From Chalara sp. BL73 (lineage: Eukaryota > Ascomycota > Leotiomycetes > Helotiales), in NCBI GenBank assembly GCA_918026815.1, contig CAKJVC010000010.1, positions 1,676,501-1,740,500 on the forward strand: a DNA stretch of 64,000 bases, read 5' to 3'. This document shows, piece after piece, positions 8,421 through 51,956 of the stretch. The notes below the pieces were generated by a model that worked only from the letters and a program-made list of their open reading frames with translations, searched no databases and was not told where the DNA came from. Position numbers and translations under genes: made by a program. Every line of letters begins with the position of its first letter. Within the stretch, counting starts at the first letter, position 1.

Positions 8421-10029
8421 GATGAGGGAGCTTGCAGAATTATCGGCGCAATTGCATTGAGGCGCGAAGTCAAACGCGATGAACGATACTTATATCTTCC
8501 AGCTCGGAGACATTTCGAAGAGCCGAGTCCTATGCTCGTATATTCGTATTCGCATTTTCGTGCTGTATGTTTCGCCCGACTGAAACTTTAAAAGTCTTTA
8601 GAGGGAGAGTGATACGCGACCTCCCCCCCCTCTGTCTTTTTTCAACTTCCAACTTCAACTTGAACTTTTTGTTAAATATACTAATATGGGGGTCAGACAC
8701 CCCCGAACCCCCGAAACTAACCCTAACCATTGACTTTAGACTTTAATTTACTTAGAAGTTGAAATTGTAACTTTTTTTAAAGAAATCACATGACACTTGG
8801 CAAAATCGTAAGAATGTCAGAAATAGGGTCTATTTTGCAGGGAATCAATTAGAGGATCTACTAAGGTATCACGGCGATAGAATACGGGCTTGTAAAGGCT
8901 CTCAGTGATGATGATATTATCTACAGCGATGAGCCGTAAATGGAGGGAAGATATTTCTAGTTCCTGGGTCCCAATACATTTACCACTATGGTAGGTTTAT
9001 AATTTGCTTAGGTAAGCGCTCAAAACCTACCACCCCCCTGCCACCACACCAAAATGATCGCGCGTCGCGTTCGACACCTATTTGCACTGTAACTTTGCCT
9101 GCAATTGATGCATCACCAGACGCAATTACATTACAACAATGGATATTCGACTTTCACTGTCGCCGCAGCCTTTGCCAATATCGCAATTGCCTACTACACC
9201 TTCTATATCTATGCCGCTGCCTCCAGAAGCTACATACTGCTCTAAAGAAGAGTTATATGCTTCAATTCAAGCTTGGGCAGCACAGCACTACTATGCTTTT
9301 CGCATTGAACGGTCTACAAAAATAGGCAAAAGTGCCTTAACTAGGATTTTGTATAGTTGTGATCGTGCCGGGCTAGTACCGCCTGAAAATCATTCGCAAA
9401 ATAGCTTACAAGACCGCAAACGCCGTACAGCTACTCGAAAGACAGGTTGTCAGTTCTCAATAATAGCCCGTGAACGCGCGGATACACAATAGGAGCTTCG
9501 CTATAGGCCTGGCGCGGAATACGGTATACACAATCACTCTCCAAGTCAATCAATTAGCTCTTATCCAGCACACCGAAAGCTAGCACAAACGGAAATAAAC
9601 CAGGCTAGAGCTTTATATAATACAGGTAATTTTAATAGCATATAATAGCCTGAAAAAGAACTAATATCTCTAGGAATCAAGCCAGGCCAAACAATTACAT
9701 ATCTCCGCGAAATGACAACTACTTTACTTCAACTGTACGACATATATAACCTTAATGCTTCTTTTAAAAGAGAGCAAAAGCATGGACTTTCCGCAAATGA
9801 CGCTTTAATTCAACATTTCAAAGACAACAATATTCACTTCAAAATCAATATTACACCTAATAATCGAACACAGCATCTTTTTATTGCTTACCTTCAATCG
9901 ATTCAGCTTGCTCAAACTAATCACGATGTTGTATTAGTTGATAATACATATAAAACCAATAAATTTGACATGCCACTTCTTCACATGATTAGTAAGCTTT
10001 TGCTTTTTATTTATATTAATTTTTATACT

Positions 10030-10349
10030 TGTCACGGCTTTGGCCTTCCGGGGCGGAGCTTACTACCGGATACTCTAGAGCTCGGACAGAGCACAGCACC
10101 GGACACCCCAAAGCTCGGATAGAGCACAGCACCGGACAACCCAAAGCTCAGGCGGAGCTCAGCACCGGACACCGCAAAGCTCGCCTACTCTGGCCTCCGG
10201 CCAGTTCCTGTATATAGAGCACTGCTTTCTTTCTTTTCTTCTGTCCGTAGCTTGTTCTTTTAGTTATAACAATTAATAGTTGTTTACACTTCTGAGTTTT
10301 TTTATCTAGATCCACGGATCGAGATCTCTATTCAACTTGAGTTGTTACA
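10030..10349. repeat. Solo LTR, family A, in MULE 1
   Basis: 320 bp, from TGTCACGGCTTTGG to GAGTTGTTACA, with the perfect 5-bp duplication ATACT at 10025-10029 and 10350-10354. It is longer than the other family A copies (254 and 256 bp) because the GAGCTCGGACAGAGCACAGC unit is repeated in tandem near its left end. It contains TATATAGAGCACTGC as a likely core promoter. Confidence 0.9.
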
Positions 10350-42620: not shown

Positions 42621-43401
42621 TTAACTTACTTCTGAGAAGTCGGCCGAGTTCAGATCCGCATACCCGAGAGGCTGAGAAAGTGCCGGGTGGAATGGTGTCC
42701 AGGAAAAAGTTGGCCTCAGCAAGCCTTGTGAGTTTTCGCCGAAAGTAATTTGATTATTCCATGCTGGAATTGCCGATAAAGCATATGGATCTTGGGGGGT
42801 TTTAGAGTTTTCGTATTTGCTTACATATGGTGAACAGAGCTGATTCTCTAGTAAATGTTGGGCGTCGTTGTCCGTCTGAGCCGGCTGTCCGGAATTATCT
42901 ATAGGAAGGTCCTGATGTGCTCTATGGATTCGTAAGGCGGTCCCGAATTCTGTTTCCAGCGGCCACTCTAACCTAGCTCTGTGTGGGATTACAAGTTCCC
43001 CCAGCATATTCGACAGTTGTTCTTTTGAGGTCCCAGTTTGCGTCTTGGCGAGCTGTGCTCTAAGCTCCTCAACTTCCACTTCCAGCTGTTCATTCCTTTT
43101 AATGATTCTCTCTACACTGCTTGACCTGCTGGAAGCTTCGAATTCTTTCACTTTCTTTTTAAGAGTCTCGATGTACTCTTTTGTCCGTGCTCTAATATTC
43201 CGTTGCGCCTCTCGATCATTTGCGCGTTTCCTTGCCAATTGAGCGTCACTAAGATGTGTGGCGGCTCGTTTGCCTTTTCGTACTTCTATAGCCAGTTATT
43301 AGTTCAATTCCAATTGCTGTACAGTGGGTAACCAGACCGTTCTTTCTGGGTTGCTTTATATCTTCCAGATCCGGACTCCTCAAACTGCGTGCTCTTGACA
43401 T
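42621..43401 (-). CDS. bZIP transcription factor
   Basis: Two exons, 43401-43338 and 43285-42621, over a 52-bp intron with ACTAATAAC branch-like sequence and TATAG acceptor, give 242 residues. After a short N-terminus (MSRARSLRSPDLEDIKQPRKN) comes the basic region LARKRANDREAQRNIRARTK and a leucine-zipper-like coiled coil (YIETLKKKVKEFEA, then ERIIKRNEQLEVEVEELRAQL). The C-terminal half is Pro/Ser/Asn-rich without a named domain. Basic region NxxxQxxxR spacing is kept. It should dimerise and bind DNA in the nucleus. The donor (GTCTGG) is unusual, so the exon 1 end is less certain. The hAT element begins a few hundred bases upstream of its start. Confidence 0.8.
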
Positions 43402-43680
43402 AGCTTTTCTGCTAAAGGCTATACTAGTTATTTGACGTGTCTGGCGGAAGAAGAATAGTGTGTTATCGAACGCGACGAAGTACAAAAAGAAATAGTAGTA
43501 ATATTGTTGTTAATAACGAAGCTGGAACCGTGTAGTATACGAAAAAACAGCTACTGGGGCAAAACGCACAAAAGCAGTTTGGGGCACCGTTCAGAAGCAC
43601 AAGAAGTCTGGCGCTTTGCGGGGCGATATATGTTGTGTGGAGAAAAGCGTCCTGATAAGTAGTCTGGCGGGTATATATCG

Positions 43681-43830
43681 TCGCGAATAGACTGCGCAGA
43701 AACCCACGGGGCGGGCCGGGGCCCCCGACCCATGGGACCCCGTGGGTCGGGTCTTCGAGGCTCGCTTCCCCCGTGGGGTGGGTTGTATATTTTGACCCCA
43801 ACCCGCGGGACCTCAATGGGGCCCCGATAA
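43681..43830. repeat. Left GC-rich inverted end of the hAT element
   Basis: About 150 bp unlike its AT-rich surroundings, rich in GGGGTCCC- and CCCATGGG-type palindromes. Its outer part is inverted at 49770-49928. The boundary is approximate. Confidence 0.6.
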
Positions 43831-44144
43831 GATTAACTAAATATAGAAACTACAGTCAAACTCCTCTACAAGAATGTAGGGCGGACTGGCGGAATTTTAA
43901 AAATATACGAGGTATTCTAGTATCGAGATGATTCTTTCCAGTTTTGGCATTGATTTTTCTATGTGCACACAGGTTAAACAAGGCTATTTTGTATACTTGT
44001 TTTTACAAAAGTACTTGAAATGCAAAGTGGTTGATTAGTATAAAAATTAGTATAAAAATTAAACTTCAAATGTTAAATCTAAACATATTGTAATAGAGTG
44101 GAAAAAATTGTGAATTATAATAATACAACACTAATATTCTAAAA

Positions 44145-47026
44145 CTAATTTTTTTTTTGCTTTTTTGACCTGTGAATGCCTATTGGAGTATCCGGCACAA
44201 TATTACCAATACCAGGAGTCGGAAGTCGAGGCAGCTCTTGACTACTATTACTAGATAGTTCCCAGTTCGTTGTTTCAATTGACGGTTCGCGGCGATTCCT
44301 AAGTGTATTTTGAAACTGAGTAGTCGAAAGTGGCTGATTTTGATGAATTGATTGACGTAAAGATTTAGAAATCTTGTAATCCCAGCGTTCTTGAGCACGA
44401 CGAGTTCGAACTTCTTCGTTTCCTTCTGGTTCTTCATCACTAATATAGTAATGATTTTCCCAAAGATCAATTTGATCAAGTTGGACTTCAAGATCATTTT
44501 CTCGCGTTTTAATTTCCGTTTCCATATCTTCAAGTGTCATATCCTGGATATTAATAGTTGAAAATAGTAGATTTTGAAGCTCACGTGTTCGTGAATGTTC
44601 AACGAGCGAATGATAAACCAAAAGAAGCGACCGAATAGTTGTCGGTTGAAGCTGGCCACGGCGATATCCGCATATATCACGTGCAAAACTAAAAGCACGT
44701 TCTACTCCAACACCGGCCATCGGGATACAAAGTAAGTCTCTAGCCATTGCTGATAAGCCAGGAAGCTGTGTTTCAAGCGATTTCCAAACAAGTAGCGGTG
44801 ATCGATTATCAGGCTCTAAAAAAACAACACAAAGATTAGTATAAAAATTAGTATAAAAAGTAGAATTGTAAACATACTCATAGCCAGCCATTCATCAATT
44901 TCAGAAGGAGAAAAGTCATCATCTTTGCGATAAGGGTTCTGAATGTCTCGAGTAAAGCGCTTGCGACTTAATGCCAATGCTAAAGGGTCGTGATTAACTT
45001 CTCGAATTTGAGAAAGTCGGTCAGCATTCGTAGACTTTTCTTTATATTCCGTATCGTATAACGACCGAAATTGACGCTCAAATTCTTTGGCCCAATCAAC
45101 TGTTTTGAAATTAAGCCAGCAGTAATCTTCTTCAAAGCATTTTAGCTTCGATTTTGGATCAAGAATTGCTCCGATGCCATACAAACTACCAAGACTACTA
45201 TATGTTTTGTTATAGTAAGTATCAAGCTTGGCTTCTGCAGCGTTAATCGCACCAATTAAATCTTTTACCCAAAGTTGAGCAACAGACTTTTTGGTTAATA
45301 CTCGGCGAGATTCTTGCAAGTGTTCAAACAATTCATCGTAAATTGATAAAGCATAAGGCAATGTTATGCTTGTTGTTTTGCCGATTGTTGTTGTAAAAAA
45401 ATTGAAAGGACGTAACAAATCGGCCAAATAGCCAAGTTTTTTCCATTCTAATGCAGAAAAAGAAAAAGGCTTAGCAGGATCGTATGCACTGCAAAATTGA
45501 TTGATAGACTCTTTAAGACGCAATGCACGAAGAATCATATGCACTGTTGAGTCCCATCGAGTGCATACATCAATTAACAATGTAAGAACTGGATCATTCG
45601 GAGAAGATGAATCTCTGATTTGTTCTTGTTGAACTCTTTGAAATCGATGTTTCCGCTGTGCACTGGAATTAACAAGAATAGCAAGCTTTCGAATCTAATA
45701 TAAGATTAGTATAAAAATTAGTATAAAAGTCACGTGTTACATACCTTTGCTAGTATATATGGAATACCACGTTTGTCACTAGCTTTGATTCTCTCAAGAT
45801 CAGACAGCTCTTTTTCTGCTACCCAATTCCGAACAAATGTGTCGTTAGTAGGCCTCAATTGAACAAAGCCCAAAAGTGCTTGAAGACTAAGCTGAATCAC
45901 ATGCGATAAACACGGCACGTGTTGGACTTTCTTTTTTAGAATACTATTAGCTTTCAAAGCTTCTTGTAAGTATCCGTTGATTTCGAGAACCATTGTAGTA
46001 TTCGAACTCGCATTATCAGTTGTAATTGAAACAACACGATCAAAAAGATTGTGCTGTTGAAAAACGTTATTGACAACTTGAGCAAGCGCATTTCCGGAAT
46101 GAACGTTTACTAAACTTTCAAATCCTATTAATTCTTGACAAAGAACCCATGACTTATCAATATAGTGAGCTATTATACCCATAAATGATAGTCTTGTTGT
46201 ACTAGACCAGCAATCAAGAGAAATTGCAATTTTGCTTCCAGGAACAACATTTGAAAGCATGTTCTGTTCAAGTTTGACTGATTGTTCCATTAGTCGATTC
46301 TTCATAGTTGTTGCAGAAGGAAGTTCGAAATTTGGATTTTGCATAACAGCTAGCTTTCTCCATTCAGGATTTTCGACTGCGCGGAAAGAAGTACGAAGTG
46401 AAACAATAGTTGCAAGAACCTGGTCGTGAAATGCTTGCTTCGTAAAGATTGGTTGCTATTAATATTAGACATTATACTAATATTTATACTAATCTACTTA
46501 CAGAGATAGCGTGAAACATGTCTTCCACTTTTTTCTGCCTTGTATTACTTTGGCTAGAATAAACAAAGCATTGCCGAGACGCTATATGACCAGACAAAGC
46601 TTTTGTGCCGGTATTCCGCGTATTTGGATGTGCGAGAACCTTGTTGCAGTTTTGACATATGACTTTAGGCTCTCCGGTGATCCGGTGTATTCCTTGATCG
46701 AATTGTTTCCAAGCAATAGATTTTCGATTTTGAGATTTCCAATTTAATTGCTTTACCAAATCAATTGATTGGTTTGCAACTGCTTGAACTGCCCATTGTG
46801 TACTTAACCACCATTCAACAAACTTATCGTGATATTCGAGTTCCCATCGAAAATATAGGTTTTTTGGACCAATTTGCGAAAATAGTAAATTGTCAGAAGT
46901 ATTTGGCTCAAATGAGCTAAAAGGATCAGAAAAAGTCTTGCGAATTGCTTGACTCCATAGCAACAAAAGTGTGCAAGTAAAAAAAAAAAGCATCAAATCG
47001 GAAAGAAAAAACAAGTATTTAAACAC
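44145..47026 (-). CDS. hAT transposase, intact
   Basis: Four exons (to 46502, 46455-45745, 45694-44878, 44815-44145) splice in frame to about 900 residues. The start is uncertain: the frame opens at 47026, but ATG at 46993 is equally possible. Around residues 105-152 is a BED-type zinc finger (WKQFDQG...CQNCNKVL...CF-proximal His and Cys). The catalytic core follows with Asp256 in SLDCWSS, Asp322 in TTDNASSN and Glu723 in GVGVERAFS, the last within the C-terminal hAT dimerisation region (LLVWKSLETQLPGLSAMARD). A Glu/Arg-rich tail ends the protein. It should move the element by cut and paste. All introns are 46-62 bp, and several contain paired TATACTAAT. Confidence 0.9.
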
Positions 47027-47195
47027 AAGTTAAATTACTACTTCCAAAAAATTGTACATATTAAAGGTTATAATTAAACTTCCAAAAATTAATGTAAAAT
47101 ATAATGATTAGTATAAAGATTAGTATAAAATTGAATATATCTGCTTAAAGTTCCTTGCTTCATTTGTTGTATATACTTAAAAACTACATATACAT

Positions 47196-48502
47196 TTACA
47201 GCTTACGCGGCTTTTGAAAGCTGCTTTGTAAACCAAAGAATGCTTTAACGATTGTTTGACTTAAAGAATTGTCTGTCATCAAAAACAAATCATTATAAGC
47301 GGGGAAAATACGTTCGTATGATCCATCTTCCGGAATTTCCGTAGCATATACCATATCAAACGCTTCTCTATGGCCTGTCAACGAATCGGAGAAGCCGAAT
47401 CCTGTGTCATTTAACTTATCGTCGGCTGGCCACCAATTTGCAGGGCCCGGCAGATCGATCCACTCTTCATTTCCGTATGCCCATGCTGCAAGATTTTTCC
47501 AAATTGCCTTTTTCTCCTTGAGTAAAGTATCTTTCAGGAGTTTTATACGCATAGAATTTGCTATATCAGTTAGCAGATTAGTATAAAAATTAGTAGAAAT
47601 TTGTACTTCTTGTAAATGTAAGGACAGCTTGTTCTTTCCAAGTATTCCTGTCCACCAGCAGCAAGCTTTCGGATTTTGCGGAACAAAGATCGACGGCTTC
47701 GGCGCCATTTTCTTTGCCAAAACTTAAATTCAAGCTTTTTGGCATCCTGAAATTGTATTAGCGTTATACGAATCATTATATTAATCTGAAACTTACTAAA
47801 ATGGATCGTTTATGCTTGGCAATCCCGTCATTTTTCAACTCTTTAGCAGATTTGCCGACAACTGCTTTATCACCGTTTTGCTTTTCATTCAATCTCCACA
47901 TATGCTCAAACTCGTATTCGTCTTCCGATTCATACTCAATATCTTCCCATGCTGGATTTCCATCATCATCAATTGCATATAGGCCACCAATTTCTCCATA
48001 ACCCAAAGCTTTTGCCACAGATTTCCAATCTTTGCCATCTCGTTCACTATACAGGTTAGTATAAAAATTAGTATAATCAAAATTAAACGAACCGCTTTGT
48101 TCTAACTTGCAAAGCAGACTGCTCAATCATTCGCTTCTGCTCGGCAACAGATGCGAGTGCAAATTCGGCAGACTTTTTGAGTACTTTTTTTCTGTATGTA
48201 ATTGCTGCTTGATCTGCGGCTTTCGCTTTTTCGATCTGATTTTGAATACTGTTGCTTTTTATAGCTTCAAGTCTTCTTCTAGCTTTAACAGTATGCACAT
48301 TGGTAGAAAAAACTGCCCGGAGATTTGCGCTTGCGTTTATTGGAAGAACCGATTTGCTGCGAGGAATCAAGATCCATATCAAATTCATGATCTGAATCAT
48401 CAGAAATGACAATGATATCCTTGAAACCGATTAGTATACAGATTAATATAATATTTCAATAAAAATTACCTGAGGAGGTTGCTTTTCGAAAGGTGAAGCC
48501 AT
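47196..48502 (-). CDS. Unknown spliced accessory gene of the hAT element
   Basis: I do not recognise the family. A likely start is ATG 48502 (MASPFEKQPPQ), spliced to DIIVISDDSDHEFDMDLD, which looks like a SUMO-interacting motif (hydrophobic VIS core next to acidic residues). Then come KRKRK, a Lys/Ala-rich helix (EKAKAADQAAITYRKKVLKK), an acidic domain (WEDIEYESEDEYEFEH) and a C-terminal domain rich in Trp (AAWAYGNEEWIDLPGPANWW) ending at 47196. At least four introns carry the TATACTAAT pair. A T run of six near 48315 needs one base less to stay in frame, and the frame between 47810 and 47590 is ambiguous. So the structure is provisional. Confidence 0.5.
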
Positions 48503-49025
48503 ATTGGAAAGTAACGCAACCGAAAAGTAGGCGTATTTTGCAAATTTCAACTCGCAAGAACTAGAGCTTCAAAAATTAGTATAAAGATTAATATAATACA
48601 CCAAAAACACGTACTGCGATAGATGTTTGACTTTGTTCAGATTTAATAAGTTGGTGCAAAAAGAATGAATGAGGGAAAAGTACGCGTTATCCTGAAAAAT
48701 AAGGCAGTCGCGTTTTTATGCCTCGATTTTAAGGCATCCAACTACTTTTTTTAAACCTGACTTCTTTTAACCTTCAATTAAATTTACCAACAACTACACC
48801 ATACACAAGTATGTATTATATTTATCTTTTTTATATTCTATTTTTATATTAATCATTATACTAATTCTTTATAGTCTTCTCGTCGAAATCACAAAGCTAT
48901 AATTTCAATTTCACGTGTCAATATTCACATTCACCTTCACCTTTTCTGAAAATAATTTGCGACTTTGCACAGGTACATATTATTCTGTATTATACTAATA
49001 TTTATTCTAATCTTAATAGGTTACA

Positions 49026-49576
49026 ATGGCACGTACCAAGAAAATAGCTACCAAATCTGCTCGCAAACCCTCTGCCAAAACCTCTGCCAAAACCTCTGCC
49101 AAAACCTCTGCTAAAACCTCTGCAAAAGCTGTACCAAAGAAGAAATATCGATTGAAACCTGGCAGTAAGTTGATTAATATAATAATTAGTATAAAACTAA
49201 CATTTAAACGTAGCCAAAGCACTTAGAGAAATCAAACGATACCAAAAAAGCACTGAGCTTTTAATCCCAAAAGCTCCATTTACTCGACTAGTTAGGGGAA
49301 ATAATGTATGATATTACGTCTCGACACGCATTTCGCATTCAACTTAGTGCTTTACAATGTCTCCAAGAAGCCGCAGAATCTGCTTTGGTAGCTGAGTTCG
49401 AGCGTAAGTTATTTCATATAAATACATTATACTAATATTTATACTAATATTACTTTAAAGTCACAAATCTTGCCGCAATCCACGCTAAGAGAGTTACTAT
49501 TCAAGTAAAGGATATGCATTTGGTTCAAAGAATGAGAGAGGGAATGACGGGCTACAAGTACCCAGGCCGGTGTTAA
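49026..49576 (+). pseudogene. Histone H3-like (CenH3-like) gene inside the hAT element
   Basis: Three exons, 49026-49164, 49214-49403 and 49461-49576, with GTAAGT donors. The product starts MARTKKIATKSARK, has a TSAK unit repeated about five times instead of the usual H3 tail, then [23 protein letters not shown] (alpha-N helix), FTRLVR, LQEAAESALVAEFE (alpha-2) and TNLAAIHAKRVTI (alpha-3), so the histone fold is clear. One extra G in GTTAGGGG (49291-49298) breaks the frame; with three G it reads REI and continues. Loop 1 is then two residues longer than canonical H3, as in CenH3 proteins. About 147 residues if in frame. A further intron probably lies in the 5' leader (48974-49019). It is divergent from the accessory gene. 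Confidence 0.8.
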
Positions 49577-49769
49577 AGAATCAAACGCAGTTCATACAAA
49601 GGAAATGGGTTAAGCAATGGAGTTATTAAAGGTATACACGCTAGCGATAGGGCGCTAAGCACATAATAAAATTCACAAACCAAAATTTTAATACGTTTAT
49701 GTCGCGTAGCTTTTGATTAGTAGACTTATTAGTATAACTTCTCTAACTGTACAGCAACTATTGTAATGT

Positions 49770-49928
49770 CACGTGTAAATGTAATGGGTGCTTGGCACCC
49801 CATCAAGACCCCATGGGGTGGGGTGGGTGCTTTTGATAGACCCCAACCCATGGGGTGGGACCCCGACGGGTGGGGTCAAGTAGGTGAAAACCCGCCCCGT
49901 GGGACCCCAGTTCGCAGTCTAGTCGCGA
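49770..49928. repeat. Right GC-rich inverted end of the hAT element
   Basis: About 160 bp with repeated CCCCATGGGGTGGG-like palindromes, inverted relative to 43681-43830. The shared outer core is the complement of TCGCGACTAGACTGCG. It follows the H3-like gene after about 190 bp of AT-rich sequence. Confidence 0.6.
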
Positions 49929-51956
49929 AGCCCAAGCCCAGACTTTTGTGAGGCTAGCACTAGTAAGCACTCCCGTGCTTATTGCTCACAGCAATAAATA
50001 ATGTTGAAGCGGTTCCAGCTGCAGTTTTTTGCTAATGCAAATGCAAAGCGAAAGCAAAAGTTAAACCCCATTCGCTGTCTAGAGCTTCAGGGGTAAGTGC
50101 GGTGTGGTCAGCAATGGGTCACAATAAAATATTTAAGCTGTGTCGAACCCGTTTAAGCAATGAACTCATACTCCATGATCAAGCCATAAATCCGTAAGTT
50201 ATATATTCGGTATTGTAAAAAGAGAGGATAGGGTGGAACGGCGCACGGTAAGGTTTGGGTGCATAGCTTGTGGAGCGCCGCCTGACTAGTCTAATTGGTG
50301 GGCCTATAAAATGGGATCCGTAGATCCTGGTTGATGGAAGTGGAAAATGCAAACTGGGATCTTGGTATGGACCTAGTCGGCCAAGCTATTGGGGTATGTC
50401 CGTTGGCGAGAGTGAGAACGGTAGAGCGGTATAGGAACAGGGGTTGTGGGAACCCTGAGTGGTTAAGCGACAGGCGTTATGCAAGGGAAGTCTTTCTTTT
50501 GCGGGCTTCTAGAAAGCCGCTAGAAGCCTTTAGAAGAAACCTCGTTCAATAGAGAGAAGAGCTAAATGCAGGTGAGAGCCCTAAAGGTGTAGTTTTGCGC
50601 CACTTTGATTCCGTGATATGCCCGTGACCCACTGTGCTCGATAGTCTAATGTCGGATCCCTGTGAAACATGCTCGAGATGGGATAATGTCATGTGCGCGC
50701 TACTGTCAAAGCTGTTGTTTACGGTTTTATGGCGGTGTGTATGTGCGCGTGCGCGTGGTGTAGGGGAGGTGCTTCGGAAAAGCCGTGTGGCTGACTAGGT
50801 ATTTCCTTCTTTTTGTACTAGAACGGCCATCGAAAGCACAATACTGGCTAATTTATCTGGTATAATCATGTGCATGATGCAACAATAGCATTGTCGAGGT
50901 ACGTGTGCCGGTTCAATTTAGGTGTGTTCAAGTATACGCTGCAAAGATGAAACACACTATGCAGGACTTTGCCGCACGAGGACCTCAATGTGTTTGTTTG
51001 TTCTTGGTTTGCAAGCTTGGGCAGCGAAGTCCAAAGTTCACCCAGGTTTTTATATTAGAGAACAGTTCTGGTCCGGCATAACCCACGAGTAGTCTTTCCG
51101 CTGACGTTCTGGAGGAAAGAGGCATGCCCAGGATGATGAGGTAAGGGGCTTTGCGCCCAGATTAGTCCGATGCGCTATCCGCGGTTCATCGGAGAATATA
51201 TGGAGTTTTAAGGAGACAAAGCAGCAATTACCAACAGGAAAGAACCATTTATTTCGGGGTAACCGACATCCCTACAATTGAACATCCTCTGGTATATCGC
51301 CAAAGCTTTCCGCAATTCTTACAGTGGCCTAATTAATCATAATCGAATTGGCATTCGTTGACAACTACCTGATTTAATTTACCCGATATATCACACTTCA
51401 CAATCCCATTCGTTAATGTTCCGATCAATAGAAGTATACTAGATCAGGTTCTAACTGAAGCGCTTTCCCAAGCATCTCAGATTATAACAAGGCGGGAAAT
51501 CACACAAGAGATCTGTGCGTTCGGCTACGGTTACCACGCTCTGTCGGCCGAAAACGGATGATACCTGCCTGAGGCAAATATAAAGGATGCCAGGGCTCCT
51601 CCGCATTGTGGCTGACATCCAACATCCCATTTTCCTCTGAAATGCATGTTTAACGGTAGTTTATTCCCTGCTTTCAGACTATCAAGTTCGGTTTTAGGTA
51701 TATTCCATCCGGGAACCGCAATGTCCTTCATCGTAATTCAAATCAAATAATCAGAGACATATTAGCAATCTGACTTTTCCTCCTACATCGTCACATCGCC
51801 TGCGTCTTGTAATGTTAGCTTAGCAGTGTCCTCCTTTTCCACTTATCCAACCCTCTTATTTGCTTTGTTGATAGAGTCAACGAGGATGTCTTCTCTAGTC
51901 CTACATCATAAATTTTAAATCGACGAACCTCCCTGCAGATGAACCGTTGCCACAAC
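49929..51956. other. About 2 kb with no recognised gene
   Basis: Frames of 73 codons (50331-50552 plus) and 66 codons (51531-51731 minus, beginning MKDIAVPGWNIPKTELDS) are the best seen. The second could be a small real protein, but no family is known to me. A short GT/GC-alternating run lies near 50740. No RNA gene was recognised. Confidence 0.3.

Follow-up and report, generated by a model that had tools for sequence, protein, structure and literature searches.

A three-gene hAT element of Chalara sp. BL73 that carries a divergent histone H3 gene and a motif repeated in its introns

Why would a DNA transposon carry a histone gene? Transposons are usually thought to meet host silencing with one dedicated protein at most. 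The question is raised by a 6.2-kb hAT element in the fungus Chalara sp. BL73, which lies within a 64,000-nucleotide stretch of contig CAKJVC010000010.1 (the window; C7:1676501-1740500 in our numbering of an assembly of 58.7 Mb in 199 contigs). Between its ends are three genes, which encode a hAT transposase (TNP), a protein of unknown family (MID), and a divergent histone H3 (H3L). We find that this unit is almost certainly a three-gene hAT element, autonomous judging by its gene content, and that the three genes travel together through the genome. As for why the histone is there, we tentatively favor a reading in which H3L and MID form a chromatin or anti-silencing module, and we weigh it below against several alternatives.

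The element moves as one unit

Copies aligned from other loci stop at bases 43688 and 49921 of the window, giving a whole element of 6,234 bp (43688..49921). An earlier note on this DNA, made from its letters alone, had placed the block at 43681..49928 and was correct to a few bases. Each end carries the short terminal inverted repeat (TIR) TAGACTGCG (left, 43688..43696; right, as its inverse, 49913..49921), which is continued imperfectly on the left by GC-rich subterminal repeats to ~43830 and preceded on the right by such repeats from ~49790. These are the GC-rich inverted ends that had been described before. Reading the flanks revealed an 8-bp target-site duplication, GTCGCGAA, at 43680..43687 and 49922..49929. 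Short TIRs and 8-bp duplications are both expected of a hAT element, and the duplication was perfect in all 23 copies read at both flanks. Because C17 and C18 have common flanks, these 23 duplicated copies represent 22 sites. The flanks of C33, C122, C62, and C114 fall outside this count, and C6 is without a right end.

DNA searches of the genome with the left and right ends found 31 and 32 places, respectively, and all copy counts given here are lower bounds. With two short elements set aside, TNP, MID, and H3L were present in every one of the 27 long two-ended copies, and no hAT copy among them stopped short of the H3 gene. The idea that transposase, accessory gene, and H3 move together is thus borne out at many loci with 8-bp duplications. 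Four more copies were partial (C6, C53, C73, and C135), and the H3L match was split in C62 and C114. As the ends, the duplications, and the many loci show, TNP cuts and pastes the entire 6.2-kb unit.

The two short elements, of ~720 bp each, are gene-less (C127:1034560, L055; C183:16851, L056). Their ends are the same as those of the full element, each holds one copy of the motif described below with 2 mismatches, and both are absent from the places matched by TNP, MID, and H3L. Since they have common flanks and a common AGCATGAC duplication, they look like a single insertion. Their existence indicates that the genes are not required in cis. Identical insertion flanks were also seen in two other contig pairs (C17 and C18; C6 and C7:1-10000), so the assembly contains duplicated or alternative contigs.

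Three spliced genes and a separate class of H3

Gene structures were read from copy C133, where the frames of TNP, MID, and H3L are all open and the introns, bounded by GT and AG, measure 46-62 nt. TNP (44145..46958, minus strand) encodes 884 aa when spliced at introns 46456-46501, 45695-45744, and 44816-44877, and its length is backed by relatives. The spliced C133 protein contains the hAT C-terminal dimerization domain PF05699 (37.9 bits vs. a cut-off of 21.4, E 1.5e-9), and its match to the RNase-H-fold PF14372, at 20.0 bits, is under the cut-off of 27. MID (47196..48502, minus strand) encodes 370 aa across introns 48420-48469, 48047-48092, 47747-47796, and 47561-47606. It is indeed spliced, as first supposed, and a protein database search found two relatives, one from Chlorociboria and one from a Tricladium species (both Helotiales, Leotiomycetes). 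Near the N-terminus of MID is the sequence DIIVISDDSD, which we take to be SIM-like (SUMO-interaction-like), and elsewhere the protein has KRKRK, presumably a basic stretch.

H3L (49026..49576, plus strand) encodes 147 aa across introns 49165-49213 and 49404-49460, and the spliced C133 protein matches the core-histone family (PF00125, E 8.7e-30), which confirms the H3 gene. GT-AG boundaries suggest one more, putative intron with a motif copy in its 5′ untranslated region (UTR), at 48973..49019 on the plus strand. Compared with host H3, loop 1 of H3L is two residues longer, T takes the place of the alpha-N glutamine, and LFEDT has become EFELT. The C-terminus is longer, and there is a repetitive TSAK tail. 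Near the start of the protein, T stands at position 8 beside K9, where H3 has R, and the K27 context is missing.

In a 16-sequence tree (9/13 inner branches open, three long rows, and a bootstrap that had not settled), H3L fell on one side of a branch with sequences P0001 (Bisporella), P0027 (Tricladium), P0032 (Pseudogymnoascus), P0040 (Clarireedia), and P0045 (Talaromyces), with support of 99/98. The grouping of H3L with Bisporella and Tricladium alone had support of 97/94. The gene is thus separate from both host H3 and host CenH3, and no grouping with CenH3 was seen in this tree. Judged by its sequence, H3L is a histone H3 class distinct from both. Capture of an H3 by the element has indirect support only. 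Because H3L groups with other Leotiomycetes (Pseudogymnoascus and Clarireedia among them) and with Talaromyces, a Eurotiomycete, any capture looks old. We also considered an origin from CenH3, which is hinted at by the loop and alpha-N residues, but the tree gives no such clade and the idea was dropped.

Among the best 120 of 7,647 database matches, relatives of H3L include one that is 90% identical (P0001) and one that is 62% identical (P0027), and one Tricladium species has relatives of both H3L and MID. The structural model of P0001 has four histone helices at middling confidence (mean predicted local distance difference test score, pLDDT, 70). Within the Chalara genome, protein searches with H3L (72 candidates scored in one, 48 in another) matched only host H3 (C159) and host CenH3 (C66) outside element copies. 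A DNA search gave an additional 53-bp match, on C85, to the repetitive tail of H3L.

Mutation, selection, and frameshifts among copies

Copies fall into two states. Fourteen of the 23 compared with C133 differ from it at just 0.6-0.7% of sites. The other nine (C17, C18, C27b, C168, C159, C59, C3a, C109, and C3b) are 4-18% away, and 92-99% of their changes are C-to-T or G-to-A, as in repeat-induced point mutation (RIP). The suggestion in the earlier note that the element might escape RIP therefore holds at best in part, with 9/23 copies heavily mutated. When eight RIPed copies were pooled (L022-L028 and L032), the C-to-T changes had a (T/C)C(A/T/C) context (CCT 0.61, CCA 0.51, TCT 0.46, TCA 0.41), with ACN, GCN, and CpG contexts at ≤0.094, unlike the classical CpA preference.

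Between C133 and the window copy, we counted 17 synonymous and 4 non-synonymous coding changes (binomial p 1e-8). By gene, the synonymous/non-synonymous counts were 11/3 for TNP (compared over 837 of 884 codons), 5/1 for MID (p 0.0017), and 1/0 for H3L. This synonymous excess suggests constraint on both TNP and MID between the two un-RIPed lineages. In five RIPed copies, non-synonymous/synonymous counts for H3L ran from 9/8 to 59/31, below the ratio of 2.9 that a rough RIP spectrum predicts, and TNP and MID were above their expected ratios (3.7 and 3.1). We dropped the reading of selection on H3L from these copies owing to RIP context, copy relatedness, and the crudeness of the model.

Relative to C133, the window copy as assembled has single-base frameshifts in all three genes (TNP 1, MID 2, H3L 1). 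The hAT identity of the transposase first described at this locus is upheld by its PF05699 domain, but with a frameshift in TNP the word “intact” is not literally true of the window copy. All 14 near-identical copies carry single-base frameshifts in at least one gene, and among the 16 un-RIPed copies in which H3L was seen (C133, the 14, and C90b), H3L is open in just C133, C51, and C178. Across copies, 3 of 10 pairs of frameshift sites show all four combinations in a four-gamete test. Frameshifts are absent from five of the nine RIPed copies (C168, C159, C59, C3a, and C109), and the others have 1 (C27b), 2 (C3b), 7 (C18), and 14 (C17). C17 and C18 represent one insertion, found on two contigs, yet they do not carry the same frameshifts. 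Because of the four-gamete conflicts, the frameshift-free RIPed copies, and this discrepancy, the frameshifts are likely, although not proven, to be assembly error.

A 22-bp motif outside the coding sequence

An intron motif common to the genes had been noticed from the start, and it proved to be a 22-bp tandem, TTATACTAATNTTTATACTAAT, with 15 matches in the element at up to 3 mismatches vs. 0.01 expected in the whole window. All 15 lie outside the coding sequence (p 5e-9 under random placement). The motif occurs exactly once per intron in ten introns, one of them the putative 5′ UTR intron, and five copies are between genes. Relative to the transcript that they lie in or adjoin, 11 copies are sense and 4 antisense.

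From left to right, the motif is found on the 3′ side of TNP (44034..44055, minus strand), in TNP intron 3 (44835..44856, minus) and intron 2 (45705..45726, minus), and, antisense to the gene, in TNP intron 1 (46472..46493, plus). The next copy lies between TNP and MID (47107..47128, minus). Within MID, it occupies intron 4 (47577..47598, minus, 1 mismatch), intron 3 (47764..47785, plus, antisense, 3 mismatches), intron 2 (48055..48076, minus, 1 mismatch), and intron 1 (48430..48451, minus, 2 mismatches). Two copies separate MID from H3L (48575..48596, minus, 1 mismatch; 48844..48865, plus, 2 mismatches), and they are followed by those in the putative H3L 5′ UTR intron (48990..49011, plus, 1 mismatch), H3L intron 1 (49173..49194, minus, antisense, 2 mismatches), and H3L intron 2 (49427..49448, plus). 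The last copy is downstream of H3L (49716..49737, minus, 3 mismatches). Elsewhere in the window there is a single weak copy (10011-10032, 3 mismatches). A bZIP-like reading frame (42621-43295, minus strand; PF00170, E 5.8e-4, below the cut-off) lies a few hundred bases off the element's left end.

With up to 2 mismatches allowed, the genome holds 407 motif matches, whereas a reversed control gave none. Of these, 295 sit in the 24 copies read, with none in the flanks of those copies; the remaining matches, ~100 of which were not individually placed, should mostly be in element copies that were not read. Among 100 places listed, all exact matches, 98 are in element copies and two are in a Mutator-like (MULE-like) gene on C9. 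The two copies of this transposase gene (C9:1384442, L057; C9:1826263, L058) have one motif each, directly before an exon in an apparent intron; the sequence “...MDGDQAQKNA...” was read by eye, with no family search.

The motif may reach beyond this genome. The two transposase relatives nearest to TNP are 51 and 54% identical to it, and where TNP has introns 2 and 3, their read-through peptides fit the motif with 1 and 0 mismatches, compared to a best reversed-control value of 3. The scan covered 129 retrieved proteins and worked via the genetic code, not the DNA. This fit argues for constraint on the entire 22-mer, and both relatives apparently keep the motif. A fit in the Tricladium H3L (P0027) had 3 mismatches, which is the control level, and is not claimed. 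We also dropped the idea that the motif is shielded from RIP through being bound, as it is mostly without RIP-prone contexts. Mutations in the ACT context affected 3/176 motif sites vs. 22/392 other noncoding sites (no significance test), and in an earlier, smaller set 1/80 vs. 98/1449 (p 0.058).

What H3L and MID may do for the element

The reading that we favor, with slightly less than even confidence, is that H3L and MID together make up a chromatin or anti-silencing module. Its support comes from the linkage in 27/27 copies, the 5:1 synonymous bias in MID, the separate H3L clade, and the placement of 15/15 motif copies. The open frames of C133, the relatives of H3L and MID in other fungi, the modeled fold of P0001, the read-through fits in two transposases, and the matching layout in Pyrenophora (see below) also speak for it. 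Because MID looks constrained and one Tricladium species has relatives of both proteins, the accessory genes appear to be maintained; that H3L is retained by the element and is not accidental cargo is partly shown. Escape from silencing, like the marking of chromatin and the biased inheritance that the earlier note also suggested, is a hypothetical role for H3L. In this reading, H3L would stand in for H3 and be assembled with host H4 into nucleosomes, which would probably lie on the DNA of the element. MID, with its basic stretch and SIM-like motif, would probably assist as the likeliest loader or targeting factor. With T for R beside K9 and the K27 context gone, such nucleosomes would accept host silencing marks poorly, and the element would stay expressible. 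The least certain step concerns the motif, which could be an address tag in every intron for MID or TNP. We regard as doubtful the full version, in which MID or TNP recognizes this tag and deposits H3L along the element, in nucleosomes that resist heterochromatin marks.

Several observations weigh against a module of this kind. Nine of 23 copies are RIP-mutated, so any protection is incomplete. With a single H3L substitution between the un-RIPed lineages, selection on H3L is not demonstrated, and its frame is not open in 13/16 un-RIPed copies as assembled. Should the frameshifts prove genuine, H3L would be missing from the majority of young copies. MID matched no Pfam family up to E 1, and the predicted structure of a MID relative is poor (pLDDT 45). 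As for the motif, its sense majority (11/15) and its branch-site-like position in sense introns also count on this side, and its restriction to the hAT element is ruled out by the two MULE-like copies.

Other roles, or none, have to be considered for H3L and MID. By transduplication, H3 and perhaps MID could be passive cargo, amplified with the transposon and of no benefit to it. Most young H3L frames are broken as assembled, which fits such a history, and the available text of PMC6710886 interprets its own H3 copies as captured retrocopies, with the amplified ones inactivated by RIP. However, H3L is spliced and in its own clade, its 62%-identical relative comes from a species in which MID has a relative too, no long two-ended copy (0/27) is without H3L or MID, and MID changes are 5 synonymous vs. 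1 non-synonymous. We therefore consider passive carriage unlikely. It is also rather improbable that H3L or MID acts in transposition itself, for example on chromatin at ends or targets, and not on silencing. Linkage of both genes to TNP in 27/27 copies would suit this role, but TNP already has a hAT dimerization domain and a relative-backed length, and the ~720-bp copies have both ends but none of the genes. A longer loop 1 and loss of the alpha-N glutamine are CenH3 hallmarks, and both changes in H3L raise the prospect of a centromere-histone mimic that confers a segregation advantage on the element. Yet these features are not common to the whole H3L clade, in which some members have the alpha-N glutamine (P0032, P0040, and P0045), and H3L is apart from host CenH3 and Schizosaccharomyces pombe Cnp1 in the tree, which leaves this the least probable role by far.

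The motif raises a question of its own, since it could be merely a splicing feature, either tandem branch sites or the trace of an introner-like intron spread within mobile elements. This account, which is compatible with any reading of H3L, comes close to an even call. In the seven sense introns, an RCTAAY-like sequence or TCTAAT closes the motif 8-19 nt before the acceptor, and the motif's RCTAAT resembles putative branch sites of host H3 and CenH3 introns (we take the RCTAAT-like sites there to be branch sites). Eleven of the 15 copies are sense when the five intergenic ones are assigned by adjoining gene, units of 44-75 nt bounded by GT and AG can be drawn around 5/6 of the copies in UTRs or flanks, and each of the two MULE-like gene copies has the motif once in an apparent intron. 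Still, 4/15 copies are antisense to the transcript, and three antisense introns have branch-like sites of their own, so a splicing role leaves them unexplained. The read-through peptides of the relatives fit the whole tandem 22-mer and not a lone branch site. Nor is this a general host intron motif, with 98/100 listed exact matches in element copies. Introners are near-identical introns spread through host genes; the introns here share a 22-bp core only, and the two listed matches outside the element are in a MULE-like gene. A splicing role thus explains part of the motif pattern.

Comparison with known systems

The earlier note knew of no described system of this kind, but hAT elements with H3-like genes have been described in two papers (PMC3538342 and PMC6710886). 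In Pyrenophora tritici-repentis, according to the available text of Manning et al. 2013 (PMC3538342), a ~5.6-kb hAT element has a transposase, a central open reading frame, and an H3L gene between TIRs. Its H3L is neither H3 nor CenH3, expressed sequence tags are reported for it, and the element has many near-identical copies. The three-gene layout between TIRs and an H3L outside H3 and CenH3 are thus the same as in Chalara. The Pyrenophora element differs in its class (Dothideomycetes) and length (~5.6 kb vs. 6.2 kb here), and the portions of PMC3538342 available do not mention an intron motif. No Pyrenophora protein was among the two MID matches or among the best 120 of 7,647 H3L matches.

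Further hAT elements with H3-like sequence are known from Pseudocercospora, Cercospora, and Sphaerulina (Mycosphaerellaceae; Dhillon et al. 2019, PMC6710886). As far as the available text goes, they are like the present element in their 8-bp duplications, H3-like sequence, and RIP on copies. By contrast, they are ~9.5 kb long, with an intronless H3 retrocopy, RIP-inactivated amplified copies, and no other domain found (PMC6710886), whereas H3L here has two putative coding introns, judging by GT-AG boundaries and frame, and is open in some copies. The Dothideomycete hAT/H3 cases are interpreted by their authors, in the text available, as transduplication. With these elements already on record, the present one adds to a known kind a member from another fungal class; no Leotiomycete element of this kind was among the top matches in the open-access literature. 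The available text of the related hAT/H3 papers has no motif in each intron, no MID family, and no suggestion that the association is maintained and not accidental. The two published studies interpret such elements as gene capture. Here, the linkage, the selection signal on MID, and the relatives in other species speak for a module that is maintained.

VANDAL elements are plant Mutator-like elements, and we know of none with a histone gene. The Chalara element falls outside that group, having a hAT domain and an 8-bp duplication. Even so, the available text on VANDAL and VANC in Arabidopsis (Hosaka et al. 2017, PMC5735166) offers a likeness, in that a short noncoding motif goes with an accessory gene beside the transposase. 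There, VANC21 binds YAGTATTAY, which is concentrated in introns and in intergenic and terminal noncoding parts of its element, and removes silencing (PMC5735166, PMC10398659). It is the closest working model for the mechanism proposed here. Motif binding is shown for VANC, whereas the motif here is known from sequence, and the analogy is functional only. If H3L and MID do form an anti-silencing module, then a transposon's own histone variant, a conserved partner, and a regularly placed motif would strike directly at what silencing acts on. In the full version, with the motif as address tag, this would be a histone-based, sequence-addressed form of anti-silencing, with a layout convergent with that of plant VANC and perhaps found in two fungal classes.

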